From: Siphonodentalium dalli
Taxonomy: Eukaryota; Mollusca; Scaphopoda; Gadilida; Siphonodentaliidae
Assembly: GCA_032622095.1 (NCBI GenBank)
Contig: CP136066.1
Coordinates: 226,366,961-226,430,960 of the forward strand
Direction: 5' to 3'
DNA length: 64,000 bases
The notes beneath the pieces are model-generated. The model saw only the letters and a program-made list of their open reading frames with translations. It made no database searches and was not told where the DNA came from. Position 1 is the first letter of the stretch, and the number at the start of each line of letters is the position of its first letter. The position numbers were made by a program, and so were the translations under genes. Below, in pieces: positions 11,841 to 61,619 of this stretch.

Positions 11841-12125
11841 CAGTATGGAATCGTAAGACTTGAGTTCCTTCGCTGGAGTCTTCTCCATCTCTAGAACCTG
11901 TTTCTCATGTTCGAGATATTCATTGTTCTCCTTAACTTTTTCCTTCCGTAACTGATAGCCAGTGTGTCGCTTCGGTTGCACCTTCATAAGTTCCTGATAA
12001 ATCTGCAAATGTTTATCGAGAAGCTTGTTCTCGGAGGACTGATCGTCTCCCTTTGCAGCATTTGAGTTCATATTTGAACAATCCATAGAATTATTTTGGT
12101 CATCACAGACAAACTTCGAGATTTC
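11841..12125 (-). CDS. J-domain protein gene, exon 11 (last one found)
   Basis: 95 codons (residues 344-438), preceded by ATTTTCAG and followed by the donor GTGAGA. It begins EISKFVCDDQNN and ends PAKELKSYDSIL. The middle part, with KLLDKHLQIYQELMKVQP and the charged stretch after YQLRKEKVKENNEYLEHEKQ, is predicted to be helical. The exon ends in phase 0 with no stop, so the coding region continues beyond it. No further exon was found between 1 and 11840. No functional motif is recognised. Confidence 0.8.
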
Positions 12126-12199
12126 CTGAAAATTAATTTATGCCAAGTTTAGTGAATTTAGTGTGTATAACCCATAGAAAGACCCACATAGACTGGAGC

Positions 12200-13479
12200 C
12201 AGGGTTCACACTGCCGCTTGCCAAATTGCCAAATTTTTGGCAATGGCAAAAAATATTTTCATTTGGCAAAAAATATTTTAAATGTTGGCAAGTGAGTTTT
12301 TAATTATGGGATGTGAACTATCTAGTCATAAAACATCATCGAACGTGGGTTATTCGTTACGTGTGCCGAATTACAGACAATAGAATGGGAAACCAAAACA
12401 AGAAATCTATCAATTTACATGTAGCGCAGTCAGCAGTGTTATGTCAACAGTTATATGTAATATTCTTTAGTTTTCACAAAATGGTAATCCCATCTTTCTG
12501 TCATAATCAAACTTCCATCAAACCGCTAATCGACCGTGGTTAAATGTGAGTCGGAAAAAAATGATGTTCTGTAAAATGTTCATTGAAGCTGTTGTTGTAA
12601 GTACTGTGTGACATGATCTCAATGTTGATACCGTAAAAGGTAATTATTAATTTGTTTTGACATTTAATCCTCACTTTGCCCATTTGGATTATGGACGCAT
12701 GTAGTCATTGGAACAATGCATATTAACCCTTTACCCAACAAACCGGCCAAAACCGGCCAAATAAAGCTTCAACAGCCTAAAATATCTTCGGTCTGTCTCA
12801 ATAGAACCATACAAATATGGATATCATTGGAACCGGCTCCTTGACCAAACTGTGATAGTTACAGTTATGCCCTGTGCCAATGCATTCTCTTATATATGCG
12901 AGTCGACCATAGGTCGCCTCGCATATATAAGAGAATGCATTGGCCTACACTTTTTACCATTTTTTCTTACATTCTTTAACAATTTTATAATTTTTAATGT
13001 GTTAAGCCAATGCATTCTCTTATATATGCGAGGCGACCTATGGTCGACTCGCATATATAAGAGAATGCATTGGCACAGGGCGCTTCTGTTGGGTAAAGGG
13101 TTAATGGCGACATTATATAGCACAGCGAGTTTAAGACAATAGGTTAATCAGCTGATTGTGAATGACAATGGATTTATTTATGGCTCGTTGATTTCAGCAG
13201 TAATAAAAGGTGAAATAATAAAATGTATACTTGATGACTGTGTAAACGTAGTTTCAAGGCAGGTGTCGCTTAGATATTGATTGCTACTTTGATATTTTTA
13301 ATATAACTAATTGCTTTTCTAGTAGCTCATTTTACCTGTGTATGTGGTTAGTTTTTAACAAAGATAAAAACACGATAATTTCCCCAATAATACGCGCAAT
13401 GAAATTTGGCAAAAAAAAATTTAATTTGGCAAAAAATAATTTCATTTCAAAAATATTTGGCAAGAGAGTGCCAACACTG
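12200..13479. mobile_element. hAT-like element (CAGGGTTCACACTGCC / TTGGCAAA-rich), nested host
   Basis: Termini are CAGGGTTCACACTGCC at the left and AGTGCCAACACTG at the right, with subterminal TTTGGCAAAAAATA repeats at both ends. Flanks ACTGGAGC (12192-12199) and ACTCGATC (13480-13487) agree at 6 of 8 bases, fitting an aged 8-bp hAT duplication. A piggyBac-type MITE (12723-13104) sits inside. A related element is at 42829-44677. Confidence 0.6.
12723..13104. mobile_element. piggyBac-type MITE, copy B
   Basis: TTAACCCTTTACCCAACA at the left, TGTTGGGTAAAGGGTTAA at the right. Two inverted 69-bp hairpins lie at about 12876-12943 and 13007-13075. The body (CCGGCCAAATAAAGCTTCAA, ATATGGATATCATTGGAACC) is nearly identical to the other copies. 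Nested in the hAT-like element around it. Confidence 0.9.
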
Positions 13480-13487
13480 ACTCGATC

Positions 13488-14190
13488 CAGGGATTTTTCT
13501 GCCTATTTTGGGAATGGGTCCAGGTCCGTACGAATTGGGAAAAAGGTGTCTCTACAGACCAAAATTTTCCATGTTTTAGAAAAATTCAATTAATCACTGT
13601 TACACACAAGTAAATAATACTAATACCGTAATTTTCGGTGTATAACGCAACTTAAACACAGGTAACTCAAAGATGGAATAAAAGCCTCCAGTAATTGGAA
13701 ATTCACAGATAACAACAGAAGGATTCAAGCCATCCACCAAACTTCCGACGGAAAAACGGTAATAAAACACCCAAGGATGGATAGGTATCTAGCTGTAATT
13801 CAATAAATAAAATAAAATAATTAATACCAAATCAATGTGTCCGTGTTATCATTCCCATATGAGCTACCAGTACGGTACTACTCTCGGGCTCAAAATAAAC
13901 GTGCAGACCCAAATAATAGTGCAGGGGGAAATTTCCAGCAAATGTTTATAAATGCGGGAGGTAAACACCTGGCTCGCCCTGCTATTTTCATTTTTGGAAT
14001 TCCTCTCAAGCGAGTGACGTATTTACTATAATAACTGTCAAACTTTGATAATTATTCAATAAACCCGATGGTATTATATACCTGCGTGCAATTGGGAATT
14101 TGGTGGTTGAAAATTGGGAAAAAGGTGCCCTTTTCCTATTGGGAATGGGGCCGCATACCGGACCCTGAGGACACCTAAAAAAAATCCCTG
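13488..14190. mobile_element. probable hAT-like element (CAGGGATTTTT termini)
   Basis: CAGGGATTTTTCTGCC at the left; AAAAAAAATCCCTG at the right. GGGAATGGG and GGGAAAAAGGTG recur in inverted form near both ends. It directly follows the ACTCGATC that also borders the preceding element. The right flank GGAGCAGA matches only part of an 8-bp duplication. Confidence 0.5.
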
Positions 14191-14239
14191 GGAGCAGATG
14201 ATAAATACTATGTTTTCTACCCATAGAGAGTACAAACAA

Positions 14240-14875
14240 TTATTTTCATTTTCACATTAAATAGGGGGTTTCTGCTTACAGTACAGTGATAGTACGGCTG
14301 GGTGGGTGGTAACCAGTGTTGTATTGCTAAAATATAAAGTGAGGGAACAGACCATTCATCGTGCAGCGATGACCGACGCAGAATGCATCGTGGGGGAGAG
14401 ACCGTGAGAAGGTTTCATAGGTGGGGGTTCGGGAAAATTTTGTAAAAAAAATATCAAAGGAGGCATTTCCTCACGTCTCCTCTTCATATAGTCAAAAAAA
14501 AATCTGCAATAAATTTTTATCAAAAATGGTTTGTATGAATACAAATTGTCTGTATATTTATTACATATATAGAACTGGCAGGATTCATTCACTTGTCAAC
14601 CCCCATATTTTCAAGTAGGTCTATATCAGGAATACCGAGGGATAACTTCTTGTCTATTGACTATTCTATGTTCAGCCTTATAATGGTGTACATGTATGTG
14701 GCTATTAAATTGCTTCGTGTGCTGCACAATGAGTAATTTCACCACGACGGCTAAATGTATACGTCCCTTCTGGCTAAAAAGTGAGGGGACGCTGTTCCCA
14801 CAGAAAAACATCGCTGCCAGTAACCAGTATTATTATTATTATGAAAGAATTTATCAATCTCTACCAGAGATAGCC
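14240..14875. other. intronic stretch without recognised features
   Basis: No exon, clear terminal repeat or tandem array was seen. The short ORFs are low-complexity. Confidence 0.4.
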
Positions 14876-15178
14876 GGGGGACCTCGTGGGTAGTAAATGT
14901 ACAATAACGACCCGGGGACCTCGTGGTGAGTAAATATATAGTAATGAACTGGGGACCTCGTGGGTGGTAAATGTATAAGTAATGACCTGGGGACCTCGTG
15001 TTGGTAAATGTGCAGTAATGACCCGGGAACCTCGTGTGTAGTAAATGACAATAATGACCTTGGGACCTCGTGGGTGGTGGATGTGCAGTAATGACCCGGG
15101 GACCTTGTGAGTAGTAAATGTACATGGGGACCTCGTGGGTACTAAATTTACAGAAATGACCAGTGGACCTCGCTGTCT
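14876..15178. repeat. minisatellite of GGGGACCTCGTGGGTAGTAA units
   Basis: About eight imperfect units of roughly 36 bp, each GGGACCTCGTGGGTAGTAAA followed by TGTACAGTAATGACCC. Stop-free reverse frames here give repetitive PRGP/HEVPG peptides, which are artefacts. Confidence 0.9.
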
Positions 15179-15629
15179 TGATTATTTCTTTTCACATAAC
15201 GTGGATCATACAAAGCTTAAATTAATTCTTATTATGAAACATAAATCATAACACAAAATTCTTCTTTGGGTTTCTGCTATCTTTTATTTTCCTATTCTTT
15301 ATGACTATATCAGAAACTGCCTATACAGCAGAGTGCTCTACCTATCATTAGCTTATGTCAGCTTCCGGTGGGTAAGACATGGTACCTCTATTTGTGGACT
15401 CTTCTACTATAGGGCATCCCCCCTCTACTCACATAATGTGGGTTACACAAAACCAGTCATATTTCCTTTCTCATACTGTCATCGGCTGGGTACTAGTCTG
15501 TGGTTTTCTAAATTTAGCGTGAGTTTTTCCAGCCAAAACGGCAAAACCGATCACCACTATAAAGAAGGGTGCACATTTTTATGAGGGGTAGGTATCTGAG
15601 AATCAGAATTTTATTTTATTTGACCTAAC
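15179..15629. other. intronic stretch, nothing recognised
   Basis: AT-rich sequence downstream of the minisatellite up to the donor of exon 10. No repeat structure is obvious. Confidence 0.4.
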
Positions 15630-15854
15630 CTGTATCTTCTCAGAGCTGTCGATGTTTGCTTTCATTTCTCTTTCTCTCTTTGTTTTGTCGACTAGTTTTT
15701 TCAATTCCATATTCCTCGTTTCCTTATCGAAAACTTCATCTGATCTCATGTTAACGTCTGCAGACTGATGTCGAATTTTGGGCTTGTCATAAGCAAAAGC
15801 ATCGTCGGGTAACACATTATCCATATCAGCTGATCCCGTACGAGCAGCTTTCTT
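15630..15854 (-). CDS. J-domain protein gene, exon 10
   Basis: 75 codons (residues 269-343), acceptor TTCCAG, donor GTTAGG, phase 0 at both ends. It starts KKAARTGSADMDN and ends ANIDSSEKIQ. The first half is acidic/polar and probably disordered (LPDDAFAYDKP). The second half (MELKKLVDKTKREREMK) is a charged helix. It joins exon 9 as AKLQ-KKAAR. No domain is recognised. Confidence 0.85.
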
Positions 15855-16246
15855 CTGGAATAGATCAAAATACAGGTGGTAATGGCAATGTCCACACATA
15901 TTCAATCATGGGAGGAGCTTATGATTGGTAGGACAGTAGGCGTCTGCAGAAATAGTTTTACAGCGCATGCCTATATGCTATAATATACCCGAGAACATGC
16001 ATTATTTTCATCTTTCATTATGAAAAATATGACGATTGTCACACAGCACACAAAACGAACAAGAGCTGCCTGTCACCCATCGCATGCTCCCCCGAGACGT
16101 TATACTGCTTCACTCAAAGAAATACCAAATAGTGCCATCCGTTATTGCAATCTCGACTTCAAGGTGGGAATACACATACTGGTATATGTATCTGCGTCCT
16201 ACAGCTGTAGCGAATTTGCAGACATACCCAAGCAACATGTGCATGT

Positions 16247-16301
16247 ACAGTAATGGTCTAAGTAATCGACGTCTTAACCACAGCAGAATTATAACCTATG
16301 G
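16247..16301. mobile_element. mariner-like MITE fragment (one arm)
   Basis: TACAGTAATGGTCTAAGTAA followed by TCGACGTCTTAACCACAGCA matches the left arm of 31929-32097. The right arm is missing. Confidence 0.6.
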
Positions 16302-16478
16302 CTGAGATACTCAGGCAGACTGACCCAAAAATCTACATTTTCAGATAAACTAGGATGAAGAACTCAAGAACAGAAAACGCAAACAAAATGATTGAACGCT
16401 CAATGGAAAGTGCTCATGGTAGTGAACATTCATATCAAATTTCATTGAGTATACCCGCCATTTACTTTGGTTATGAGG

Positions 16479-17582
16479 TAGAGATGGGCGGTTAACCGTG
16501 GAATCAGTTCGGTTTCGGTTGTCGGGAAAAACCGGAAATGACAACCGTGGTAAGTTGGGAAAACCCGTGGTTTCGGTTGTCACAACTTCCTGTAATCATG
16601 GCAGAACACGACGAACAAACGAGTCCTGTGTGGAAATATTTTTCAAAGAAAGATAAGAAATCTAAGTGTGCCGCCTGTAATATATGCAGAAAGGAGTTCG
16701 CACGGTGAAATCGCGCGACGAATTAATTACGTTGCTTCCGTGTACACCTATTTTCGCCGTAGTAAACACAACACTAGTCAGTTTATTTCTCATGTTATTT
16801 AATCATTAAGGCCGTACAAATACTCTGAAAGCTGAATTTGATAACGAAGATACGATATCAAAAGGTATCAATGATTGTTACCCGCATTCCTTATTAGTTT
16901 TTATCACTGTTTGGATGTTAAATCGTCAAATATATTTGTGCGCCGTTGATTAAAAATGTTATGCCGGAATCGGAGCCGGAATGAATTATACCGTTTGTCG
17001 GTAAACTGTTGAGAAATAGCACTCATTCAGGTGACTTGTATTGGATGCATGTATACTGTATAGTGTGTACAATATTATGTTCCCTAAATATGGTAATAGG
17101 CATATAGCCAGATAATGTGATTGAGAGATTCTAGTCATGTTTTATTTTCATTTTGTTGTTTATTTCCAATTTTATTTTTCAAATCATAACTATACACATA
17201 TATCTAGTCACACACATTAGTTTTATGCCAATATAAATGATCATTATATTATTTCACACTTATGATCATATGATGCTGAATTGCAGTCATACACAATACA
17301 CAGACTCACTTGCATTCTAGCACTGCCACTCGACATGGACATTAACAATATACATGTAATAGTAACAATATGATACATAATTTAATATTATAAAAGGACA
17401 TGTACCTCACAAGTTATGGTGATACAATTGGTGTGTTTTCTTTGTAATATGATGAAGCATAATTAGATTTTGTTCACATTAGTAATTTTTATTAATAAAA
17501 ACCGAAACCGAAACCGAGACTCAACTCTTTTTCCACAACCGAAACCGAAACCGAGGCAAAATTTCACAACCGCCCATCTCTA
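16479..17582. mobile_element. hAT element (TAGAGATGGGCGGTT termini), deletion derivative
   Basis: A perfect 15-bp inverted repeat, TAGAGATGGGCGGTT / AACCGCCCATCTCTA, with the 8-bp duplication TTATGAGG at 16471-16478 and 17583-17590. Subterminal GGTTTCGGTTGT and CCGAAACCGAAACCGA repeats point inward from each end. It keeps the first codons of a BED-finger transposase (16598-16708) but no catalytic part. Confidence 0.92.
16598..16708 (+). pseudogene. BED zinc-finger start of a hAT transposase, truncated
   Basis: A 36-codon remnant beginning MAEHDEQTSPVWKYF and continuing KKDKKSKCAACNICRKEF before a stop. The S-x-VW-x-YF aromatic pair and the Cys pair match the front half of a BED finger, the DNA-binding N-terminus of many hAT transposases. 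The second zinc-ligand pair, the dimerisation region and the catalytic core are absent. It lies 119 bp inside the left terminus of its element, the expected place for a transposase start. Confidence 0.75.
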
Positions 17583-18070
17583 TTATGAGGATACTACAAC
17601 ATTGACAAAAATGTTACTTGTTAAACAAATTTAACCAATATCACCCATCTGAATTAGTGACCAACCAGAAGAGTGGAAATGACCCCACAATTGATTTTAT
17701 GGGTGGAGTGATATGTCAGCTGATGTCAATCAAGAATTCACCATTCGACCCCAAATATGTTTATACTATGAAATAGTGTTGAAACGATTAGGGGTTTTCA
17801 AAAGTCGACCAGTTGACAAGAGAAGTTAACTACAAGTCTAGTTGAACCCCATCTGCCAGCTACTGGTGACATGATTTACAACGGAACGATGACTTAGGTA
17901 ACAACTTGAACAAGGCCCATTGAAGGATCAGTGAATAATGTAGTTCTAAGCTAATTAAAACAATATGCCTGCTAGTGCAGCTGCACACCAGCACTGAGTT
18001 GTTAGCATCTTTTGAGAAATCTAGGGACACCGTGCATGATGAGTTGAGCTCTCGATCTGCATGTGCTACA

Positions 18071-18324: not shown

Positions 18325-18540
18325 GTGCTACACCTGTATCATGTGTTAACACATGGCAGCATATCGGTGTCATCAAAGGGTCACTAAAGGGAGTAATAAC
18401 TGGATCTCTGAATAATAAGAGTACCGATCTACATGTGCTACACCTGTATCCTGTGTTAACACACGGCAGCATATCGGGGTCATCAAAGAGTCCCTAATGA
18501 GAGTAATAACTGGATCTCTGAATAATAAGAGTACCGTTGT
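18325..18540. repeat. tandem duplication of about 110 bp
   Basis: CTACACCTGTATC, TGTGTTAACACA, GGCAGCATATCGG, GAGTAATAACTGGATCTCTG and AATAATAAGAGTACCG occur in the same order twice, with a few substitutions. Confidence 0.85.
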
Positions 18541-18720: not shown

Positions 18721-18728
18721 ATTTGAAA

Positions 18729-20785: not shown

Positions 20786-20951
20786 CTGAAGTTTTGCTTC
20801 TTTCTTTTTGCTTTTCTTCTCGTTTTTCTTTTCCTTTGCCTCAATTTTCTTCAAGTTGCCCATGATTTCTTCTTCCTTCTTTAATTGTTCCATCCTCTGT
20901 CTTTCTAGTTCTTTCTTGATATCAAACCTAGTGTCCAGCTTGTGGCTTGCA
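20786..20951 (-). CDS. J-domain protein gene, exon 9
   Basis: One base completing the codon split with exon 8 (Ser 213), then 55 codons (residues 214-268). Acceptor TTTTTCAG, donor GTATTT, phase 2 to 0. It starts ASHKLDTRFDIKKELERQ and ends SKKKEAKLQ. Almost all residues are Lys, Glu, Arg, Gln, Met or Leu, so a long single helix or coiled coil is expected. The run KEKKNEKKSKKK is strongly basic and could bind nucleic acid or act as a nuclear signal; this is speculation. Confidence 0.85.
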
Positions 20952-21831: not shown

Positions 21832-21914
21832 CTTGGTTTAGTTTCCTTCACTTGCTTCTCTTTTTCTGTCTTCACCATCTTCTCTCTCAGCTCCTTCCCA
21901 ATCTTCTCCATTTC
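21832..21914 (-). CDS. J-domain protein gene, exon 8
   Basis: 27 codons plus two bases (residues 186-212 and part of 213). Acceptor TCACAG, donor GTTTAT. It reads EMEKIGKELREKMVKTEK then EKQVKETKP, a charged helix that continues that of exon 7 (EQKRREK-EMEK). It sits 41 bases left of a piggyBac-type MITE (21955), so that element landed very close to a splice acceptor. Confidence 0.82.
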
Positions 21915-25606: not shown

Positions 25607-25699
25607 CTTTTCTCTACGTTTCTGCTCTTCTAGTAATTCTTTCTGAGTTGGTTGTTTGGGTTTCGATGGTAACTTTTGGCTAGCTCTGTGTTTCGCTTT
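25607..25699 (-). CDS. J-domain protein gene, exon 7
   Basis: 31 codons (residues 155-185), acceptor TTTGTAG, donor GTAACG, phase 0 at both ends. It starts KAKHRASQKLPSKPKQ and ends LLEEQKRREK. A basic, Pro-containing linker leads into the charged helical region of exons 8-11. The in-frame joins to exon 6 (FTAEE-KAKH) and exon 8 (RREK-EMEK) support it. Confidence 0.85.
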
Positions 25700-25721
25700 C
25701 TACAAAAGAAGGAAACTTAAG

Positions 25722-26026: not shown

Positions 26027-26308
26027 TCATTTGACCCGGAAGTGGTTACCATGAATATTATTTACAAAAATTAGGATCCATGACTGGAAATGACTGGTGA
26101 TCAAGGACAGTGGTTTCTGCATATATTTAGTCGTTGAATCTTTCTTCAGTTTATCGCTGCTTTCCAGCATTTTCATTAGGTCGTCGGCCGTGTTTGCTCG
26201 TGTCATCATATATCGCAGTACAATGTCACGGCCATACATTGCATCATCTTGCGTTCCTTTGCCACCAATCGCTACAAAAAGCCATTCTACGATGCTTTTA
26301 ACATCCAT
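26027..26308 (-). CDS. unidentified ORF, possibly a gene remnant
   Basis: 93 codons with an amino-acid composition more protein-like than nearby chance ORFs (MDVKSIVEWLFVAIGG, then DAMYGRDIVLRYMMTRA). Just upstream, in another frame, a separate ATG starts MSSQNENHVPNVEMRHPSYD, so a longer reading frame may have suffered a frameshift in an A-rich run. It lies right of the Tigger-like terminus and could be cargo or transposon sequence. No family is recognised, and it may be noncoding. Confidence 0.25.
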   Translation of the reverse strand: MDVKSIVEWLFVAIGGKGTQDDAMYGRDIVLRYMMTRANTADDLMKMLESSDKLKKDSTTKYMQKPLSLITSHFQSWILIFVNNIHGNHFRVK

Positions 26309-26817
26309 TTTTTCTTTCCGTCATAAGACGGATGGCGCATTTCTACGTTTGGAACATGGTTTTCGTTTTGGGAAGACATGACTGAATGAAATTATTCTCT
26401 ATATCAAGCAGTTTAAATATGATTTTTAATTTCGTCTGTCAACACTATACTAATCCCCACACGGTGGAAATTGACCCACGCACCTCGTTAATATGTTAAA
26501 TAAATAATGCATTAGGACAAACCAAGACTCTAAGAAACTTCACAGCTTTTTATGCAATTGAATAGAAGCACACTGAGTTAAAATCAGATGGCAATGCTTC
26601 GCCGACGGCACTTCGACTGGAAATGAAAATTGAGTGCAAAGTCCAACAAAAAGGGCCCTATCTCTGGTAAAAATTGGCGAGCAGAACCCAAATTCGAAAT
26701 TGATCTGTATTTTTAAGATGGCCTATAAAATATATTGAGCCAACAAACATGGAAGCTAATGCATTGTCAATCATAACACACAGGCATAAGGAACATAATA
26801 TTAGACTTTTACCCTGT

Positions 26818-36528: not shown

Positions 36529-36608
36529 CTGATATGCAAAATTAAAGAAACGATCCTCTTCTAAATCTTCTTCACTCTGCTGAAAATAATTTCTTTTTAC
36601 TTCAAAAC
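36529..36608 (-). CDS. J-domain protein gene, exon 5
   Basis: Two bases completing Gly 112, then 26 codons (residues 113-138), FEVKRNYFQQSEED then LEEDRFFNFAYQ. Acceptor TGTTTCAG, donor GTACAG. The acidic/aromatic composition continues the style of exon 4. Only a phase-1 donor upstream avoids an immediate stop here, which decides how exon 4 ends. Confidence 0.8.
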
Positions 36609-39874: not shown

Positions 39875-40127
39875 CAAGGCCACAATTCATCACTGTGGGT
39901 TAAAAGTTTTTAAGTCTAATGTGAATCGCGATTCTGCATATTGTTATGTGAACATTAATGCGGATACGTATTGTATAATAGCAGGGGTGTATCGTCATAG
40001 CGCTAGCATACTTACGATTTTTAAAGATATATTCTGCAAACACATCTATAAATATCTTCTTGAGATATCCCATCTGCAAATAAAATAAGATACTATGAAT
40101 GGCTTTGATTTCCCCAGCCTCAATTTT

Positions 40128-42828: not shown

Positions 42829-44677
42829 CAGAGTCCGCGCTGGACAGAAATTTACTTTTGCCAAATAAATTGCCAAACGAAGATATTTTTTGCCAAATTC
42901 TTTTAGAATTTGCCAAATATTATCCCTGTTTATAATAGTATCATTTTCTGGTACCTTGATTGAGTCTTATGTTTCGACACTCGCGGTTTGATATCGATAG
43001 AAAAGCAGTTAGTTAATGATTATACTCTCATCTCTATTATGGTTTATCATACAACAATAAACCAATCACCGAACAACAAGAGATGGACTGTCGTCCGGTG
43101 CATACCCCCTCATGGCATACCGCCTAGTGTGGGCACATCTATAACTTACGATGGCTATACTCAGACATATGGACCCAGAAATCAGCATTTTCATATAAAC
43201 AAAGATGAATAACTATAGAACAAAAAACCAAAACAAACATTTGAATGTGCCATTAAATGTCCTCATAGTGGTGAACATCCATACAAAATTTCATTGAGAT
43301 CCGAGCATTACTGTTCAAGTTATGAGCTGAACAGACATCGGATGGATCAAACAGCCAACATTTCCAGATAAACAAAGATGAATTACTCTAGAATGGAAAA
43401 GCAGAACAGAACAATGGAACCCCCTATTGAATGTCCTCATAGTGGTGAACATCTATACAAAATTCCATTGAGATCCCAGCACAACTGTTGAAGTTACGAC
43501 ATGAACAGACACCAGATGGACCAAAAAGCCAACATTTCCAGATGAACAAAGATGAATAACTCTAGAATGGAAAAGCGGAACAAAACGATGGAACCCTCTT
43601 TTTAATGTCCTCATAGCAGTGAACATCCATACCAAATCCCATTGAGATCCCAGTACAACTGTCGAAGTTACAATATGAACAGACACCAGACGAACCAAAA
43701 AGCCAACATTTCCAGATGAACAAAGATGTATAACTCTAGAATGGAAAATCCGAACAAAACGATGGAACCCTCTATTGAATGCCCTGATAGCAGTGAACAT
43801 CCATACAAAATTTCATTGAGATCCGAGCACTACTGTTCAGGTTATGACATGAACAGACACCAGATGGACCAAAAATCCAACATTTCAAGATAAACAAAGA
43901 TGAATAACTCTAGAATGGAAAATCCGAACAAAACGATGGAACCCTCTATTTAATGTCCTCATAGTTGTGAACATCCACACCAAATTTGGTTGAGATCCCA
44001 GCACAACTGTTGAAGTTACGACATGAACAGACACCAGACGGACCAAAAAGCCACTATTTCCAGATAAACAAAGATGAATAACTCTAGAATGGAAAATCCA
44101 AACAAAACGATGGAACCCTCTATTTAATGTCCTCATAATAGTGAACATCCATACCTAATTTCATTGAGATCCGAGCACTACTGTTCAAGTTATGACACGA
44201 ACAGACATCGGACGGACGTACGGACTCACGGACGCACGCACGGACGGACGCACGGACGCACGGACGGACGGACGGACAGGTGCAAAACAGTATACCCCCC
44301 TTTTTTTTTTAAAAGGGGGTATAATAAAATGGTAGAAGCATTGCTTCATTGGAAGGGAACATCACAAGGGGATTAGCTATGTAAATACCACCACCACCAC
44401 AATAAATACGGGTAATCCCTCCACCCATCGATACTAATGCTATCAGATTAACTGCATCTTGTTATCTTTGCCGAATCCATATAAAACATATAAAAACTTA
44501 TATAATTCCATTCTAATAATTTCCTAAAATGAATGGTATTGATTTACCAATATTTTTCAACTTTATTGAGGAATTAAAAAGTGACTTGCCAAAACTTTTG
44601 CCAAATGAAAATATTTTTTGCCAAATGTGAATTATTTTTGCCATTGGCAAATTTGGCAAGTGGCAGCGCAAACCCTG
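42829..44677. mobile_element. hAT-like element (TTTGCCAAAT-rich ends) carrying a nested array
   Basis: CAGAGTCCGCGCTGG at the left and CAGCGCAAACCCTG at the right. Subterminal TTGCCAAAT repeats recur at both ends, as in 12200-13479. Flanks TCATGATAGGT and TCAGATAGGT suggest a slightly altered target duplication. The array at 43250-44325 is inside. Confidence 0.55.
43250..44325. repeat. array of about six 174-bp units ending in ACGG tract and TATACCCCC hairpin
   Basis: Units contain GTGAACATCCATAC, TCATTGAGATCC, AACAAAGATGAATAACTC and AACAAAACGATGGAACCCTC. The array ends in a long ACGG/ACGC run (44205-44280) and then TATACCCCCC ... GGGGGTATA. Inverted relative of 10301-10680. Confidence 0.9.
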
Positions 44678-44715: not shown

Positions 44716-46607
44716 TGAAAGTGTCAATGACACTGTAGCTCAACTTAGGTAGGGGAATAATTTAATGGTTGACAGTAAATGGAGGAATAGGAAAGGTGAT
44801 AATTGAAATGTCTAACCTGCGCCAAAGGATTTAGTGATGCAAAGAGTAAAATACAAGATGGCTGCTGGTGGCCATTTTTTTTGACCAATTGACCCCAAAA
44901 GGACTCGTTCCCATCTACGTATAATTGTTAACATCCATGACAAATTTTATGAAGATCTGACCAAAGCTACGACCTACAAATTTCATGATGATCAGACGAA
45001 CAGTACGACCTGTAGACCGCGCCAATGGATTGAATTTTGAAATCCAAGATGGCCGCTGGCAGCCATGTTATTTGGCCGAATGACCCCACAATGATTCGTT
45101 CCCATCTACATGTCAATGTCAACATTCATGACAAATTTCATAAAGATTAGACCAAAGGTACAACTCGTTCCCATCTACATGTCAGTGTTAACATCCATGA
45201 CAAATTTAATAAAGATCAGACCAAAGGTATGACCTGTAGCCCACGCCAAAGGATTTAGTCATGCAAAGAGTAAAATGCTGGTGGCCATGTTTTTTGACCG
45301 AATGACCCCAAAACGACTCGTTCCCATCTACATGTCATTGTTATAATTCATGACAAATTTCATGACCATCTGACCAAAGCTACGACCTGTAGCCCACACC
45401 AAAGGATTTAGTCATGCAAAGAGTAAAATCCAAGATGGCTGCTGGCGGCCATGTTTTTTGACCGAATGACCCCAAAACGACTCGATCCCATCTACATGTC
45501 ATTATTAACATCAATGACAAATTTCATGATGATCAGACGAACAGTACAACCTGTAGCCCGCGCCAATGGATTGAATCTTGAAATCTAAGATGGCTGCCAG
45601 CGGCCATGTTTTTTGGCCGAATGACCCCAAAATGACTCGTTCCCATCTACATGTCAATGTCAACATTCATGACAAATTTCATCAAGATCAGACCAAAGGT
45701 ACGACCTGTAGCCCGCACCAAACGATTTAGTCATGCAAATAGTAAAATCCAAGATGGCTGCTGGCGGCCATGTTTTTCGGCCGAACGACCCCAAAATCCC
45801 TCGTTCCCATCTACATGTCATTGTTAACATCCATGACAACTTTCATGATGTTCCCATCAAAGCTACGACCTGTAGCCCGCGCCAAAGGATTTAGTCATGC
45901 AAAGAGTAAAATCCAAGATGGCTGCTGGCGGCCATGTTTATTGGCCGAACGACCCCAAAATGACTCGTTCCCATCTACATGTCAATATTAACATCCATGA
46001 CAAATTTCATGATGATCAGACAAACAGTACGACCTGTAGGCCGCGTCAATGGATTGAATTTTGAAATCTAAGATGGCCGCCAGCGGCCATGTTTTTTGGC
46101 CGAATGACCCCACAATTATTCGTTCCCATCTACATGTTAATGTCAACATTCTTGACAAATTTCATAAAGATTAGACCAAAGGTACAACCTGTAGCCCGCG
46201 CCAAAGGATTTAGTCATGCAAAGAGTAAAATCCAAGATGGCTGCTGGCAGCCATGTTTTTTGGGCCGAACGACCCCAAAATCACTCGTTCCCATCTACAT
46301 GTCAATATTAACATCAATGACAAATTTCATGATGATCAGATGAACAGTACGACCTGTAGGCCGCGCCAATGGATTGAATCTTGAAATCCAAGATGGCTGC
46401 CAGCGGCCATGTTTTTTTGGCCGAATGACCCCAAAATGACTCGTTCCCATCTACATGTCAATGTCAACATTCATGACAAATTTCATGAAGATCAGACCAA
46501 AGGTACAACCTGTAGCCCGCGCCAAAGGAAATTGTTGACGGACACACGGACGACGGACGCCAAACCATGGCAATAGCTCAAACTTACAAAAGTAAGTTGA
46601 GCTAATA
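44716..46607. repeat. tandem array I of about 163-bp units
   Basis: Each unit carries ACTCGTTCCCATCTACATGT, CATGACAAATTTCATGA, GTACGACCTGTAGCCCGCGC, ATCCAAGATGGCTGC and GGCCATGTTTTTTGGCCGAA. The head is AATGAAAGTGTCAATGACAC. The tail is an ACGG run plus CCATGGCAATAGCTCAAACT. Confidence 0.9.
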
Positions 46608-46811
46608 AAGTAGTTGTGTTTTCTTTAAAAGTACGATTGATGCAGTAAACATTTTCAGTACATTAGTTGAATAATACATTCTTTCAGCGGACAATGTGTG
46701 AAGCGAAAATATTGCCATCATGACAACACTATTAAAGTATTTCACCACCACAGACATAGTAAAATGCACAAATGGTCAGTCATGAGCACATACAGTTGAC
46801 AGTGTATATAC

Positions 46812-49800
46812 AATGAAAGTGTCAATGACACTGTAGCTCAACTTAGGTAGGGGAATAATTTAATGGTTGACAGTAAATGGAGGAATAGGAAAGGTGCTAA
46901 TTGAAATGTCTAACCTAGCTGCGCCAAAGGATTTAGTGATGCAAAGAGTAAGATACAAGATGGCTGCTGGTGGCCATTTTTTTTTACCAATTGACCCCAA
47001 AAGGACTCGTTCCCATCTACGTATAATTGTTAACATCCATGACAAATTTTATGAAGATCTGACCAAAGCTACGACCTACAAATTTCATGATGATCAGACG
47101 AACAGTACGACCTGTAGACCGCGTCAATGGATTGAATTTTGAAATCCAAGATGGCCGCTGGCAGCCATGTTATTTGGCCGAATGACCCCACAATGATTCG
47201 TTCCCATCTACATGTCAATGTCAACATTCGTGACAAATTTCATAAAGATTAGACCAAAGGTACAACTCGTTCCCATCTACATGTCAGTGTTAACATCCAT
47301 GACAAATTTAATAAAGATCAGACCAAAGGTATGACCTGTAGCCCACGCCAAAGGATTTAGTCATGCAAAGAGTAAAATGCTGGTGGCCATGTTTTTTGAC
47401 CGAATGACCCCAAAACGACTCGTTCCCATCTACATGTCATTGCTATAATTCATGACAAATTTCATGACCATCTGACCAAAGCTACGACCTGTAGCCCACA
47501 CCAAAGGATTTAGTCATGCAAAGAGTAAAATCCAAGATGGCTGCTGGCGGCCATGTTTTTTGACCGAATGACCCCAAAACGACTCGATCCCATCTACATG
47601 TCATTATTAACATCAATGACAAATTCCATGATGATCAGACGAACAGTACGACCTGTAGCCCGCGCCAATGGATTGAATCTTGAAATCCAAGATGGCTGCC
47701 AGCGGCCATGTTTTTTGGCCGAATGACCCCAAAATGACTCGTTCCCATCTACATGTCAATGTCAACATTAATGACAAATTTCATAAAGATCAGACCAAAG
47801 GTACGACCTGTAGCCCGCACCAAACGATTTAGTCATGCAAATAGTAAAATCCAAGATGGCTGCTGGCGGCCATGTTTTTCGGCCTAACGACCCCAAAATG
47901 ACTCGTTCCCATCTACGTGTCATTGTTAACATCCATGACATCTTTCATGATGTTCCGATCAAAGCTACGACCTGTAGCCCGCGCCAAAGGATTTAGTCAT
48001 GCAAAGAGTAAAATCCAAGATGGCTGCTGGCGGCCATGTTTATTGGCCGAACGACCCCAAAATGACTCGTTCCCATCTACATGTCAATATTAACAACCAT
48101 GACAAATTTCATGATGATCAGACGAACAGTACGACCTGTAGGCCGCGCCAATGGATTGAATTTTGAAATCTAAGATGGCCGCCAGCGGCCATGTTTTTTG
48201 GCCGAATGACCCCACAATGATTCGTTCCCATCTACATGTCAATGTCAACATTCATGACAAATTTCATAAAGATCAGACCAAAGGTACGACCTGTAGCCCG
48301 GGCCAAAGGATTTAGTCATGCAAAGAGTAAAATCCAAGATGGCTGCTGGCGGCCATGTTTTTTGGCCGAACGACCCCAAAATCCCTCGTTCCCATCTACA
48401 TGTCATTGTTAACGTCCATGACAAATTTCATGATGATCAGGGGAATAGTACGATCTGTAGTCCGCGCCAGTGGATTGACTCTTGAAATCCAAGATGGCTG
48501 CCAGCGGCCATGTTTTTTGGCCGAATGACCCCAAAATGACTCGTTCCCATCTACATGTCAATGTCAACATTCATGACAAATTTCATATAGATCAGACCAA
48601 AGGTACGACCTGTAGCCCGGGCCAAAGGATTTAGTCATGCAAAGAGTAAAATCCAAGATGGCTGATGGCGGCCATGTTTTTCGGCTGAACGACCCCAAAA
48701 TCACTCGTTCCCATCTACATGTCATTGTTAACATCCATGACAAATTTCATGATGTTCCGATCGAAGCTACGACCTGTAGCCCGCGCCAAAGGATTTAGTC
48801 ATGCAAAGAGTAAAATCCAAGATGGCTGCTGGTGGCCATGTTTATAGGCCGAACAACCCCAAAATGACTCGTTCCCATCTACATGTCAATATTAACATCC
48901 ATGACAAATTTCATGATGATCAGACGAACAGTACAACCTGTAGCCCGCGCCAATGGATTGAATCTTGAAATCCAAGATGGCTGCCAGCGGCCATGTTTTT
49001 TGGCAGAATGACCCCAAAATGACTCGTTCCCATCTACATGTCAATGTCAACATTCATTACAAATTTCATAAAGATCAGACCAAAGGTACGACCTGTAGCC
49101 CGCGCCAAAGGATTTAGTCATGCAAAGAGTAAAATCCAAGATGGCTGCTGGTGGCCATGTTTATTGGCCGAACAACCCCAAAATGACTCGTTCCCATCTA
49201 CATGTCAATATTAACATCCATGACAAATTTCATGATGATCAGACGAACAGTACGACCTGTAGCCCGCGCCAATGGATTGAATTTTGAAATCTAAGATGGC
49301 GGCCAGCGGCCATATTTTTTGGCCGAATGACCCCACATTGATTCGTTCCCATCTACATGTCAATGTCAACATTCATGACAAATTTCATAAACTTCCGACC
49401 AAAACAACGACCTGTAGCCCGCGCCAAAGGATTTAGTCATGCAAAGAGTAAAATCCAAGATGGCTGCTGGCGGCCATGTTTTTTGGCCGAACGACCCCAA
49501 AATCACTCGTTCCCATCTACATGTCATTATTAACATCAATGACAAATTTCATGATGATCAGATGAACAGTACGACCTGTAGGCCGCGCCAATGGATTGAA
49601 TCTTGAAATCCAAGATGGCTGCCAGCGGCCATGTTTTTTGGCCGAATGACCCAAAAATGACTCGTTCCCATCTACATGTCAATGTCAACATTCATGACAA
49701 ATTTCATGAAGATCAGACCAAAGGTACAACCTGTAGCCCGCGCCAAAGGAAATTGTTGACGGACACACGCACACACGCACACACGCACACACGAACACAC

Positions 49801-49857: not shown

Positions 49858-49893
49858 GAGCTAATGAACAAGTTATGCTGGTATAAATATAAA

Positions 49894-50055
49894 CATAATA
49901 TGATTTAAATCTGACCTTCCATTCATCATCATTCCACTCATCGTCTGACGAGTCATAGTCATCGTAAATATAAACATAATATGATTTAAATCTGACCTTC
50001 CATTCATCGTCATTCCACTCATCATCTGACGAGTCATAGTCATCATAAATACAAC
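49894..50055 (-). repeat. two extra in-frame 81-bp copies of the exon 4 tail
   Basis: The last 81 bases of exon 4 recur twice downstream at an exact period of 81 bases, with only a few substitutions. Each copy encodes DDYDSSDDEWNDDEWKV plus RFKSYY in the exon frame. These copies have ATTATGTTTATA where exon 4 has the donor-like ATTATGGTTGTA. Whether they are transcribed as exon is open. Confidence 0.85.
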
Positions 50056-50187
50056 CATAATATGACTTAAATCTGACCTTCCATTCATCGTCGTTCCACT
50101 CATCGTCTGATGAGTCATAGTCATCTCCGCTGAATTCACAGAAATCACCTCCACAACAAGGACAAGCGGTGGTAGAATTTTTCCTCT
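50056..50187 (-). CDS. J-domain protein gene, exon 4 (Cys cluster, acidic Trp segment)
   Basis: 132 bases, residues 68 (part) to 112 (part). Acceptor TTTCCAG, proposed donor G-GTTGTA. It starts ERKNSTTACPCCGGDFCEF, with three closely spaced Cys plus a fourth that could bind a metal. It continues DDYDSSDDEWNDDEWKV and RFKSYY. The end is inferred: exon 5 needs a phase-1 join (Gly-Phe-Glu), which this donor gives, whereas the stronger-looking AAG-GTCAGA would bring a stop. A downstream donor, ACTT-GTAAGT at about 49850, gives the same phase and would add all three 27-residue repeats. Confidence 0.75.
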
Positions 50188-50893: not shown

Positions 50894-50969
50894 CTTCATA
50901 TTTGAGAAGTTTGTTATACGTCTCAGTCAGACTTTGAAACTTGACATTCGCATCCGGGTCATCTAGATT
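50894..50969 (-). CDS. J-domain protein gene, exon 3
   Basis: 25 codons plus one base (residues 43-67). Acceptor TTTTTAG, donor GTAAGT. The first 20 residues are NLDDPDANVKFQSLTETYNK, followed by LLKYE. This is the loop after HPD and helix III of a J domain, where the F-x-x-L-x-x-x-Y pattern is conserved. Phase 0 to 1. Confidence 0.88.
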
Positions 50970-53127: not shown

Positions 53128-53180
53128 CTTGTCGGGATGAACTTTCAGCGCTCTCTCTTTGTAAGTCTTCTTTATATCAA
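53128..53180 (-). CDS. J-domain protein gene, exon 2 (HPD motif)
   Basis: Two bases plus 17 codons (residues 25-42): VDIKKTYKERALKVHPDK. This is helix II of a J domain with the basic surface (KKTYKERALK) and the catalytic HPD at 39-41 that contacts and activates Hsp70. Acceptor ATTACTTCAG, donor GTAAGA. The two-sided join to exons 1 and 3 reproduces a J domain of normal length. Confidence 0.92.
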
Positions 53181-55011: not shown

Positions 55012-55758
55012 GTATTTTTTTTTATTCAATTTGAAGAAATTTTCCACCCCCTAAATTATTGGTTACTATACTATTATTTGGATAGACCTGTATTTTGTGT
55101 TATTAAACCAAAATACCAAATTTCATTCCATTCAGTCCAGACTTTACTAAAGTTATCATCCGGAAACGAAAAAAAGTGAATGGACAGATAGACATATGGA
55201 AATATTCATAGATGGACCAATAACAATAATACCTCCCGTTTTTTTCAAAATGGGCATATAAAAATCGTTCACACTATGAAGCCACGCTAACTGACCAACA
55301 GGTTGTCGCAAATGTGACAGAAATTGCCTGGTGATAGATATCTTATGGTTACAAAACAATGAACAGGACATCAAAATTGGAACTGGATTATATCAATTGC
55401 AGCCTGTGATATATTAATTTTACGACTGCTCTGTGGCGTTTGTTTTTACTCATTCTGCGGAACTAACTCAAATGTGCGATACAACCCAATTACTGGTCAA
55501 AGGTTTATCGTCTGCTTTGTTATTTTTCATCAACAAAATAAAAAAAACCTTGAAATGGCGCTTCAGTTTTTGTAGATATTTCAGTTTAGGACCCAATTCT
55601 ATCTATCTATTGGTACTGGTCGACCACCATATATGGGTGTTATCACCAGGCGCAGTCAGTGCAAGTTAGTGGAAAATAGAGTGATAGGGTGACAAGTTTG
55701 TCAGTTAAAAGAACATGTACAGATAAAAGCATTTTAAAAACAAAGGTTGCTGTCAGGT

Positions 55759-55849
55759 TCATGGTTGTAGCTGATAAGCTCTCCTCCTGAACTGGTCAGA
55801 GAGCTTCATCAGATCAAGTGGGAGTTTGTTCCAGAGTATAGCAGTTGAT
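55759..55849 (-). pseudogene. LINE ORF, C-terminal end beyond the hAT insertion
   Basis: After the hAT element the LINE frame resumes with AILWNKLPLDLMKLS and ends RRRAYQLQP before a TGA at 55759-55761. The W-N-x-LP motif close to the stop is usual at the end of Jockey/CR1-type proteins. Confidence 0.75.
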
Positions 55850-57033
55850 TAGTGATGCGGACCGGACCGGACCACCTTGGCTGGTCCGGTCCACTGCCAA
55901 GGCGGTCCAATCCGGTCTGGTCCATTCCGGTCCGGTACACATGCCTGGACCGGTCCAAAACGGTCCGGTCCACCTATAATAGGCTATATGTTAATGAATT
56001 CTCTGTTTTCTCAAAGTTTTACTCTGTATAATACAACCTATAAGGTTACTGAGTTCAGTGCATTGCAATGAGTCCACATTGTATGCATCATTGTCTGTCT
56101 CTGGTGGGATATACTGGGAACGATGCACGATAATAGTATTTCTAGTAATGCGAACATGCACTAATTAAATGTATTGGACAGATATATAGCTAGGGTCAGA
56201 ATGTGTTATAACCAATCTAACATGGCACTCAACTATTCGTATGCATGATTCGTATGATACTTATTTTCATTAAATTGAAATTGAAACGAAATAACTATAC
56301 TATTATTATCTATTGTCGTCTCTGTATTATTGTTATAATTTTTTTTGTAAAACATACTCTCCTAGATGGAGGAAATAAAGATATATATACCTAAGTACAA
56401 CTACTATTGGATTAATGTGACTGTCTTGTATATGTACTATGTAATGTGGTTTGCATGTTTCTTCGATAATTATAACTGAAAAACAATAGAATACTCGAGT
56501 CGATATCCATCCAAATTGATTAGTTGATGCCATGTTACACTGTTTATGACAAATAGTTCCATACTCATTCAGTTGCATGTTTGTCGCATTGATAGGGTGC
56601 TACAAAGTGTTGGCCAGTGTAGGATAGTAGTTATTAAAACAATTTAGAACGAAACAAGCAATTTTTATATTTTGAAAATGTTTTCAGAATGCTTAACATT
56701 TTGCGACATCAAAGCAGGCGGTCAGAAATCGGCGACATCAAAGCAGGCGGCCACCCACACTGGCACTTTCATAAGGAAAGTGACATGTACAAAGAACATC
56801 TACAAATGTATAGCGTATGGCATCAAACGTTTAATATATATTAACCACTTGAATGCGTCAATACGTCGTTGCTAATTGATATGACGGCAAATACGCAATA
56901 ATATTCGCGATAGTTTATTATAACTGAAGTAAAATAGTGGACCGGACCGGAGAGTACCAGACCGGCAGCAAAAAGCGGTCCGGTGACACCCGGTCCGGAC
57001 CGGACCGCGGTCCACCCCTGGACCGCATCACTA
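55850..57033. mobile_element. hAT element inserted in the LINE (TAGTGATGCGGACC end)
   Basis: TAGTGATGCGG / CCGCATCACTA ends with the duplication CAGTTGAT at 55842-55849 and 57034-57041. Subterminal GGTCCGGTCC / GGACCGGACC repeats are very dense. No BED finger or catalytic part was recognised; a 67-codon ORF at 56672 is unassigned. Younger than the LINE it interrupts. Confidence 0.93.
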
Positions 57034-57041
57034 CAGTTGAT

Positions 57042-58481
57042 GGGAAGAATGAATGTCTAAAATAGTTTGGCCCAGTATGAATTCGACGATAAGTGTCAGC
57101 GTTGCTATATCAGCTGTGTCTGAGTGGTTTCTGAAGGTATTCTGGGATTGTAATATTTACTTGATTATGGACTATTTTACTGAAGAGGGATAATTTTGAG
57201 ATGGTTCTTCTGTCCTCAAGGGGTTTCAGTTCTAATTCTGTCCTCATTTTTGACAAACTTGATAATCTTGAATAGTCATTAAAAATCCAACGGATGGCCC
57301 CGATTTTGTACTCGTTCAATTTTAGTTATGTTTTCTGAGGTATGAGGGGACCAAATTGCAGCGGCATACTCTAACTTTTGTCTATCCATGGCCTGATAAG
57401 CTGCTTTCTTGAGTGCTTTATTTTGTGTTTTGATATTCCTTTTTAGGAATCCCAGGGACTGATTTGCACTTAGGAGTTGTTCGTTGTATGTGGGCATTGA
57501 ATGAGAGATTGCTTGTGAGGTCGATTCCCAAATATCGCGCATTATTGACATGATCAAGTACTTGAGAGTGTAGGATGTAGTCACAAATTATGGGTTTTGC
57601 TTTGCGGCTGACTGTGAGGACGACATTTTGAGGGGTTAAAGGCCATATCCAAATTTTGCTCCCATGTCTGTAGTTTGTTTAGGTCGTTTTGTAATTGTTC
57701 GCAGTCTTTCGAGTTAGTTATTGTCATGTATAGTGCGGTGTCATCAGCAAATAAGCGTGTTTGAGCAGTTATGTGGTTTGGTAAATCATTGATGTACAGC
57801 AGGAACATCAGGGGCCCCAGGACAGACCCCTGGGGTACCCCAGATGTCACTGAGACTTCAGAGGAGGCAGCCCCCTCCAGGACAACAACTTGGGTTCTGT
57901 TGTTGAGAAAGGCTCTGACCCAGTTTAATGTGGTTCCACCAATGCCGTAATGTTCAAGTTTATAGAGCAATTTGCCATGATTTACCTTGTCAAAGGCTTT
58001 ACTGAAGTCTAGTAAGATAAGATCAGTCTGCTGACCTGCAGCAAGGCGTCTCAAGAGATCATCAGCTACATGTAGTTGCACGAGTTGTGTTTCACATGAT
58101 TTTCTTTCCCTGAAGCCATGCTGCAGGTCAAGAGAGGATCTTATTCTTTTTCAGATGCTTCGTGATGTTGGATGTGATGATGTGCTCAGTTAGTTTGCAG
58201 ATGATACAAGTCAGGGTGATCGGTCTATAATTTTCCCGGTTTGTTTTATCACCCTTCTTATATACAGGAACCACATTACCCTTTGTCCAGTCCTGTGGGA
58301 GGACACCTTCCTTCAAGGTCTTTTGAATAAGATTGGTAAGAAGGGGGGCAATTTCGTATCGGAGTTGTTTCAGAATAATTGGTTTAATATTGTCTGGCCC
58401 AGTTGCTTTGTTTATTCTAAGATTTGATAGGAGTTTAAGGATTCCTTCCTCTGATACCTCTATGTTTTCCATGTTATCCAA
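57042..58481 (-). pseudogene. LINE reverse transcriptase region, frameshifted
   Basis: Pieces in order: SEEGILKLLSNLRINKATGPD (58481-58128; here cut to the motif NKATGPDN), then after a one-base slip near 58115 LDFSKAFDKVNHGKL, SGVPQGSVLGPLMFLLY and FADDTALY (58081-57600). Shifts near 57610 and 57520 follow, then SLGFLKRNIKTQNKALK, and after another shift near 57290 IGAIRWIFNDYS. The catalytic YxDD-type site is FADD. At least four frameshifts make it inactive. Confidence 0.85.
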
Positions 58482-59853
58482 AGTTGTTGGTAGTCACAAA
58501 GGTTTCACTGAAATGGCCCCTGATGGAGGCTAGAGAGAATTGTGACAGAGTGAGAGGGTTCCTGGGTGAGAAGACTGACTGAAATTGATTATTTAGGATA
58601 TTTGCTTTGTCTATATTGAGTGTTTGTATTGTACCTGCTGGGTCTTTTATGGGTCCAACGCTGCTCTGGGACTGTTTGGTATTCTTAATAAATGAGAACA
58701 GACTCTTAGTAATTGGTCCGTAGTTGTTGTTTTGAGAGTCGTCACGTGTGTTTTCATTGGCAACTTCAAGGATGGTGCTGAGGTGTTTATCATATGCCAG
58801 CTTAATTTCTTTCTTAGCTAGACGTTTCATGGCCCTGTGCTTTTGTTTAATTACTGGGCTGACTGATCTTTTCATCTGTTGGTATAGGTGGTCCCTCCTT
58901 TTGATAATGCGCTTGATACGTTTGTTGATCCAGGCCAGAGGTGTTTTGGTTTTAATGTTTTTCTTAGGGACAAATTTTGAGGTACCTATTTCAATGTGGT
59001 GTTTGAACTGGGTCCATATTTCCTCTACTGATATCTTGGAGCAAAAGATGGTGGCAAAGTTAGTTCGGATGTATTCCCTGAAGCTCTCCCAGTCTGCTTT
59101 GGAGTATAGATATACTGTTCTAGGTGATGCTTTGGTGATTGATGGTTTCAGATTTGCTTTTATGCATACAATATCGTGGTCGGATACTCCTGAATTTATG
59201 TTGATTGTTTGTATGTGTGCGGGATCTGATGTTAAGACCAGGTCTAGAGTGTTTTTGTCTCTGGTTATCCCTCTGACTACTTGTGTTAGTGAGAAATCGT
59301 CAAGTAGGTCGATAAATTCTTCATAGAGCTTTAGGTTGGGACACTTGCTTCTTATTTTGGGTATATTTTCCTTGTCCCAATCGAGATTAGGGAAGTTGAA
59401 GTCCCCGGTTACCCAAATGTGTCCATTTAATTTAGCAATTGATTCTAGATTAAGGTTCAATGCATCTATGCTATCTTTGTCACTTTCTTCAAGGCGGTAG
59501 AAAGCTCCAAGATAAAGTGCCTTACATGAGTGAAGTTTGATTTTCACCCATAACTTTACGCTTTCCTGTGGTATGTTGGATGGTAGAGAGCGTTCTGTTA
59601 CTGTCAGGCAGTTTTTGACAATGATGCAAACCCCTCCTCCCTTTGCTTTGAGTCTGTCCTTTCTAAATATTGCATACCCGAGAGACTGTGGCAGGATTTC
59701 ACCATCAGCGATGTGTGGTTTCAACCATGTTTCGGTCCCAACAATTATGTCAGGAGACTCAGTTTCAAGAATGGCTTGCAGTTGATCTCTTTTATTCATG
59801 ATGGAACAGAAATTTATGTTCAAAAGTTTAAGTCTCGTTGTTTTAGGATTCAT
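58474..59853 (-). pseudogene. LINE apurinic-like endonuclease and linker region
   Basis: 459 open codons from ATG 59853. Endonuclease motifs: NINFCSIMNKRDQL near the start, TETW with the catalytic Glu at 41, GDFN at 150-153 and SDHD at 224-227, all in the order of exonuclease/endonuclease/phosphatase enzymes. About 230 further residues, rich in Lys/Arg, lead to the RT. The frame is lost by a slip near 58485 just before the RT begins, so the protein is cut off. This part alone looks intact. Confidence 0.85.
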
Positions 59854-60036
59854 GTTCCATGACTTTTTTAGTTAGCGGCTTGTTTATAATCGATTGGCTA
59901 GCTTCGTTTCCATGCTGGGTGGCCGGATCAAGTTGCTGGTTATAGACACACTGGTCCAGGTGCTACCATGGCTGCGTAACTTTATAACCCTGTGGTGACT
60001 TCAGTACTTAGCATTCTTTAATGTGCACACACTGAG

Positions 60037-60516
60037 GCTGATGGGGTCATTGTCACAAGGCATCGATCACATTCGTAGCCAGCTTTTTAAATCGATCACA
60101 AATGTAGCCAGCTTTTCTATGGCGATCACATTTGTAGCCAGCTTTTCATATTCAGGCGAGCCTCTATGAACACGATCAGGTTAACCTCATTTTTCTGAGT
60201 TGATGGATGAACAACAACTTGAATTTTGTTTTGATATTAACTAGTTCATCTAATAACCTGAGGTTTTCTATCAATGTCGATGGAATGCTCGAATTATATT
60301 CCAATATAAGTTGATAAAGGAAGTCAGTTTTGGAGCATGACGTCGACATTTTAGTCACCAACGTGATAACGTCATATTTCGCGCCATATAATGCATGCAA
60401 TTAGAATAGCTGGCTACGAATGTGATCGCGGGTGAAAAAAGCTGGCTACATTTGTGATCCATTTAAAAAGCTGGCTACGAATGTGACCGGAGCCTTGTGA
60501 CAATGACCCCATTGGT
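60037..60516. mobile_element. MULE-like foldback element with 9-bp target duplication
   Basis: Ends GCTGATGGGGTCATTGTCAC and the complement of ACCAATGGGGTCATTGTCAC. Inverted arms of about 110 bp each contain three direct copies of GATCACA(T/A)T(C/T)GTAGCCAGCT-type units. CACACTGAG at 60028-60036 and 60517-60525 is a 9-bp duplication, which with long arms suggests a Mutator-like element. A 74-codon ORF in the centre (60400-60176, minus) has no recognisable domain. Confidence 0.7.
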
Positions 60517-61546
60517 CACACTGAGACGGGTACACGGGTCAGCAATTAATGTCCGCACCCGATCGGACAACGTACTGCACCCACGACAACATACCTACAA
60601 ATCTTGTAACGGGGGGAAGTTGGCATTTTGCATTTGTATCTTCATTCAGTGATCTCGAATGAGACTTTTCAACCTGACAAACTTGGTATCTGAACAAGTT
60701 CTGATTTTTGTCAGATTACCCTGAACAGGTTGCGATCACTGGTCAGCTAGCAATAAATATGAGAGACCAGTATGCTACCTCTCGGCTACCGACTTCCCGA
60801 GTTTATAGCCTGAGGGTTATAGAATATGTAATGCCAATACCCCCCCCCCCCCCTCCAAATCCAAATCAATCTAGAAGGGTTAATGTCGATCAGGAAAAAA
60901 TAACATCAATACGCAATATAATTATGTCTACTTAAAATATAAACTAAAAAACAAAAAACATTGACCAGTACCGGTACTTCCGGCCATGTACACTTTTAGA
61001 ATGGTATCATAAATTCTAAGGCTCATTTGAATTATTGACTGTGAGTATGGCAACAATCATTGGATCATTGTTACCCCAGTTTGACAAGAAAAGACATAGT
61101 TGTGAAATAGATAATATAGAAGAAAGATAGAAGGAACAACTGGAATTCACTTTATTCAGTCAATCAGTGTTTTGTTGACATTGATTTACAGCCTAACTAG
61201 TAAATTGTGGAATACCCAGACAAAGTCAACCTGCACATGACAATGCACAACCTAATTTAGCATAAATTCTGGTTTATGCAGCTGTTAATATACCTGTAAA
61301 ATTACAAAACAAGATATACAGCAGATGAAGAACACGCCACGAAATAATTTCGTAAACAAATCGATTTCCCGTTGCACTCACGATCGAGCAAATATTATTG
61401 GGCTGATTTAGAGATTGGGCGATAAGATGGGCGAGGTTAAAATGACTGCAAATTAAATTTTCGGCAAACAATATTTCGGGAAGGTAACACTTTGGTGAAC
61501 TGTCATCACGGTCAGGGCTTCGTTGAAAACCAAAGAGGTGATATAC

Positions 61547-61619
61547 CAAGTGTAGCATTTGTGTCGAGCTGGAACACTTTTAAAAGATCATTTCGCTCTT
61601 TTTCTGTGACAGGCGCCAT
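61547..61619 (-). CDS. J-domain protein gene, exon 1
   Basis: 24 codons and one base from ATG 61619. The context GCCATGG has G at -3 and +4, a strong start. It reads MAPVTEKERNDLLKVFQLD then TNATL: helix I of a J domain (LLKVFQLD). An out-of-frame ATG five bases earlier (61624) would run into a stop. Donor G-GTATAT in phase 1 joins exon 2 as L-VDIKK. There is no signal peptide, so the protein is expected to be cytosolic or nuclear. Confidence 0.85.

Follow-up and report, generated by a model that had tools for sequence, protein, structure and literature searches.

A candidate class C J-domain protein gene spanning about 50 kb in the scaphopod Siphonodentalium dalli

Among J-domain proteins, DNAJC5 (cysteine-string protein) is defined by a cysteine string after its J domain, DNAJC2, DNAJC8, DNAJC9, DNAJC17 and DNAJC21 carry long charged helices, and the tail of DNAJC21/Jjj1 bears C2H2 zinc fingers. 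Class C is described as an operational class in which a J domain is combined with otherwise unrelated parts (PMC10939069, PMC13254874). We analysed a 64-kb stretch of the Siphonodentalium dalli genome, referred to here as the window (contig C6, CP136066.1), within a 2.23-Gb assembly of nine contigs that served as the genome searched throughout. A preliminary description had proposed a long J-domain protein gene on the minus strand of the window. We find it probable that the locus is one protein-coding gene of ~50 kb, whose product, a J-domain protein that by definition falls in class C, would have roughly 390-490 residues. We favour this reading because a J domain with its HPD motif is encoded, the exon chain is open, several exons score well above chance and no second copy was found.

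Since the preliminary description supplied only outer coordinates, the inner exons were rebuilt from minus-strand frame translations and a reading of the borders. The outer limits agree exactly, with the first base of the ATG at 61619 and the last exon ending at 11841, followed by GTGAGA. The chain consists of the following segments, given with their exon scores.

Exon 1, 61547-61619, minus strand: starts with the ATG and encodes J-domain helix I; raises the DnaJ match by 7.3 bits; donor GTATAT weak (1.0).
Exon 2, 53128-53180, minus strand: J-domain helix II and HPD; Pfam DnaJ; score 22.0, borderline.
Exon 3, 50894-50969, minus strand: J-domain helix III; Pfam DnaJ; score 29.2.
Exon 4, 50078-50187 (alternative long form 49916-50187), minus strand: four cysteines in nine residues and an acidic Trp module; score 35.9 as the long form.
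Candidate exon 5, 40016-40073, minus strand: score 18.0, noise level; phase compatible; a repeat adjoins its upstream side.
Candidate exon 6, 36529-36608, minus strand: score 14.9 (0.9 plus the penalty of 14), noise level; phase compatible; second DNA copy not found in the genome.
Exon 7, 25607-25699, minus strand: charged segment; score 21.8, borderline; second copy not found in the genome.
Exon 8, 21832-21914, minus strand: predicted charged helix; weak borders; second DNA copy not found in the genome.
Exon 9, 20786-20951, minus strand: predicted charged helix, Lys-rich; score 40.8.
Exon 10, 15630-15854, minus strand: score 39.2.
Exon 11, 11841-12125, minus strand: score 35.5; donor GTGAGA (9.5), or eight codon positions more to a stop at 11817-11819.

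The first three exons do rebuild a J domain with HPD, as had been proposed. Pfam DnaJ (PF00226) matches exons 1-3 at 50.5 bits, where the cut-off is 27.8, with the HPD encoded by exon 2. Omission of exon 1 lowered the match to 43.2 bits and omission of exon 3 to 29.5 bits, and no match remained when exon 2, which carries the HPD, was left out. With exons 1-4 and candidate exon 5 the match reached 51.7 bits and extended to profile position 61 of 63. NCBIfam likewise recognised the J domain, one model running on to residue 129, with the DnaJ models far under their cut-offs. The closest solved structure is the J domain of DNAJC5 (PDB 2n04 and 2ctw; E 7.5e-10, 42 bits, residues 11-62), and DNAJC8 is also among the J-domain matches to solved structures. 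A genome-wide DnaJ search listed 28 matches, none inside the window; the J domain described here was presumably missed because two introns split it. When the protein was used as the query against the genome, four of the 12 matches were pieces of this J domain and the other eight were weaker and lay elsewhere, six of these at places on the genome-wide DnaJ list with E >1e-6.

Internal exons were scored as open AG-to-GT segments, using approximate generic splice weights together with a codon table built on 40 coding pieces of the same genome (20 kinase, 11 Hsp70 and 9 DnaJ matches; 6,773 codons). The chance level was taken from 40 dinucleotide shuffles of the window, which gave a highest score of 25.3 and a mean best score of 20.2, with averages per window of 0.7 segments scoring at least 20 and 2.0 scoring at least 18. 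Five exons are clear of chance and beat all 40 shuffles (20.9 kb, 40.8; 15.8 kb, 39.2; 50.1 kb in its long form, 35.9; 12.1 kb, 35.5; 50.9 kb, 29.2), and two are borderline (53.1 kb, 22.0; 25.7 kb, 21.8). Seven of the top eight non-overlapping internal segments on the minus strand of the window belong to the chain, the remaining one being a piece of a long interspersed nuclear element (LINE; 23.9). On the plus strand the top segment was a lectin open reading frame (ORF) at 29.1, followed by a segment at 16.7. Exon 1 is backed by the J domain, and the 21.9-kb exon, exon 8, by its coding content, its phase step and its context in the chain. Exon 8 went unscored in the segment scan, its donor GTTTAT lying under the scan threshold (acceptor 2.0); it has the highest per-codon coding score, as scored with a slightly different border, and a phase step from 0 to 2, such as it provides, is required between 25.6 and 20.9 kb.

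Without candidates 5 and 6, the nine exons with AG/GT borders join in frame and without a stop over 1,164 nt (388 codons). All eleven segments do so over 1,302 nt (434 codons), and the long form of exon 4 without candidates 5 and 6 gives 1,326 nt (442 codons). The frame holds with or without the two candidates because the end of exon 4 and the start of exon 7 are both in phase 0; they were retained because their phases fit and because the preliminary description had counted eleven exons. Its claim of eleven in-frame GT-AG exons is borne out for the joining of nine or of all eleven, but the two candidates in the gap (40.0 and 36.5 kb) score at noise level. The estimate that exons fill less than 3% of the span holds, at 2.62% for the eleven segments. 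Having many exons does not in itself set a J-protein gene apart, since 30 HSP40 genes are reported in an annelid, most of them with more than five introns (PMC8910992).

Several observations weigh against the single-gene reading. The open-frame argument is weaker than it appears, as the segments were chosen partly for their frame fit. The codon model has little discriminating power, reaching 0.15 bits per codon on the set it was trained on, of which synonymous choice supplies only 0.04; much of the coding score of the exons reflects their Lys/Glu-rich amino-acid make-up, synonymous codon choice by itself tells little, and the synonymous part of the score is negative for exons 6 and 7. The borders of exons 1 and 8 are weak. 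An unconstrained path search with a penalty of 14 splits the chain over several genes, running exons 2-4 on to candidates 5 and 6, assigning exons 7, 8, 9-10 and 11 to separate genes and omitting exon 1; a penalty of 11 led to more fragmentation, with exon 1 recovered as a start exon. The 3' end could take either of two forms, splicing on at GTGAGA or the stop at 11817-11819. In addition, no segment in the 24.4-kb gap separating exon 4 from exon 7 scores above noise, and exon 4, if left unspliced, hits a stop at 49685-49687, where a short J gene could finish.

The gap and the run-on stop also favour a different arrangement, in which two same-strand neighbours have been falsely joined, exons 1-4 forming a short J-domain gene and exons 7-11 a charged-tail gene. 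The path search separates exon 6 from exon 7 and divides the chain again further on, and the phase 0 shared by the end of exon 4 and the start of exon 7 is a one-in-three match. However, exon 7 lacks an ATG and is closely preceded by a stop, and its start in the path search, at 26.0-26.3 kb, is itself a repeat (150 scored matches among 303 candidates). Unspliced, exon 4 passes into simple and tandem repeats, and the path search itself extends exon 4 into candidates 5 and 6. We regard two falsely joined genes as unlikely. The ORF at 26.0-26.3 kb was rejected as an exon or a separate start. The repeat there (26030-26320, minus strand) is of unassigned type with a 93-residue open frame, and most of its 150 scored matches carry internal stops.

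Outside the chain, the best internal segments in 12.3 kb upstream and 41.8 kb downstream scored 14.7 and 17.9, which is noise level. Two downstream segments, at 10.0-10.1 kb (17.9) and at 11.2 kb (16.2), were set aside at that level, and a terminal exon ~5.6 kb beyond the window was rejected as the 3' end, as it belongs to a partial YTH-domain copy. A bacterial-type promoter scan and the base composition near the start were uninformative, and Rfam returned nothing at gathering thresholds.

Returning to the product of the single gene, its predicted layout runs from the J domain through four cysteines in nine residues and the acidic Trp segment to a tail (exons 7-11) that is 45% charged. Searches of the tail against Pfam, NCBIfam and the PDB sequences gave no significant match (best PDB E 0.49). 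In Pfam at E up to 1 only DnaJ was found, and no SANT, RRM or zinc-finger family passed its threshold; weak matches to DUF7562, Rad50 hook, DUF5502 and HEAT fell under their own cut-offs and were not used. No second copy of the tail was found in the genome, where all five matches lie at this locus, although weak copies may escape such a search.

As deduced from its exons, the protein is by definition a class C J-domain protein, because it has a J domain with HPD (50.5 bits; HPD in exon 2) and its remaining regions are unrelated to DnaJ. It shows no G/F region, beta-sandwich domains or zinc finger, the G/F region being judged by reading and the assignment open to change by a further 3' exon. 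No Pfam match was obtained to the C-terminal beta-sandwich domains that mark classes A and B, or to the zinc finger that class A has in addition. The preliminary description had held that the rest of the protein fits no J-protein class; the tail is indeed unmatched in the libraries named above, but class C covers unrelated tails (PMC10939069, PMC13254874).

With other class C proteins the predicted protein shares the J domain with HPD and a remainder unlike DnaJ, and differs in having a tail without a significant library match. It resembles DNAJC5 in the J domain and in the cysteines after it, whereas it has four cysteines in nine residues (exon 4) rather than a long string, and a long charged tail besides; cysteine-string protein identity was rejected on this ground. 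A J domain and a charged region are common to it and DNAJC2, DNAJC8, DNAJC9, DNAJC17 and DNAJC21, but here no SANT, RRM or zinc-finger match exceeds its cut-off. Identity with DNAJC21/Jjj1 was likewise rejected, as no zinc-finger Pfam family was found, though an additional 3' exon could hide one. The chances seem evenly balanced that the protein is an orthologue of an existing, unnamed invertebrate J-protein family, and hence not lineage-specific, which would be compatible with one gene. The libraries searched do not cover animal proteomes, which leaves room for such a family, whereas no Pfam family above its own cut-off spans the tail. A literature search recognised no publication describing this protein, which is not proof of its absence from print.

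The border of exon 4 is triplicated.

Unit of 81 bp in three in-frame copies, 49883-50125, minus strand: each copy with the acidic module and the donor GTCAGA.

According to Tandem Repeats Finder, the interval 49883-50125 contains 3.0 copies of an 81-bp unit with 93% matches. In each copy 48 nt of the acidic Trp module precede the donor and a further 33 nt follow it; the copies are open, and 81 is divisible by three. Within the 48-nt coding part all four differing sites are synonymous (~0.007 under random transitions), and in the 33 nt past the donor two of four are, sites too few for a significant contrast. These differences bear on whether the locus is a gene in decay or silent, with those exons that are left still open. 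The weak borders of exons 1 and 8 and the repeat-rich introns are what such a gene might present, but 388 codons are stop-free and the changes among the exonic parts of the three copies are all synonymous, and we consider decay very improbable. The three donors allow isoforms with one to three modules, or a single long exon. More speculatively, the protein may be a lineage-specific Hsp70 co-chaperone with a tunable acidic partner-binding module, three equal in-frame donors 81 bp apart yielding isoforms with one, two or three acidic Trp modules; we think this rather doubtful. The border of exon 11 (11760-11860, minus strand) may be duplicated as well: as read from the sequence, a diverged repeat of the exon end and its donor apparently comes after them.

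A role as an Hsp70 co-chaperone, also proposed in the preliminary description, is a natural reading of a J domain with HPD, and the same assembly contains four full-length open Hsp70 matches. By analogy with class C proteins generally, the tail is likely to target and the J domain to trigger Hsp70. The HPD face would stimulate ATP hydrolysis by Hsp70, and the cysteine/acidic segment with the charged, probably helical tail may tether the protein to a client or complex and thereby direct Hsp70 to act there. The Lys-rich stretch of exon 9 could serve as a nuclear signal.

Other features lie in and near the window. In the plus-strand ORF at 805-1530 a C-type lectin domain scores 30.4 bits and a PAN region falls slightly under its cut-off (20.3 vs 21.4), and a similar plus-strand ORF lies 16.6-17.3 kb beyond the low end of the window. 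The YTH-domain copy, a minus-strand open frame of 138 residues ~5.4-5.8 kb beyond that end, covers profile positions 48-135; a full-length YTH match is on contig C3, and the copy near the window looks 5'-truncated. LINE pieces in several frames occupy 57279-59853 on the minus strand, with an endonuclease ORF at 39.7 bits and a reverse-transcriptase match below cut-off in the one piece searched. Long tandem arrays run over 45163-49750, 6514-8096 and 43186-44217, with periods near 164/319/483, 105 and 174 bp. On contig C2, near-identical single-exon kinase matches form a large tandem array at ~149.83-150.60 Mb, which accounts for over half of the 135 listed Pkinase matches.

A single gene at this locus would be a multi-exon gene recovered from ~97% intron sequence. 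Its product would be a candidate orphan Hsp70 adaptor. If the three exon 4 donors are used, the gene would show how a tandem repeat spanning a splice site can vary the modules of a co-chaperone in nature; otherwise it adds one more tail to the already diverse class C.
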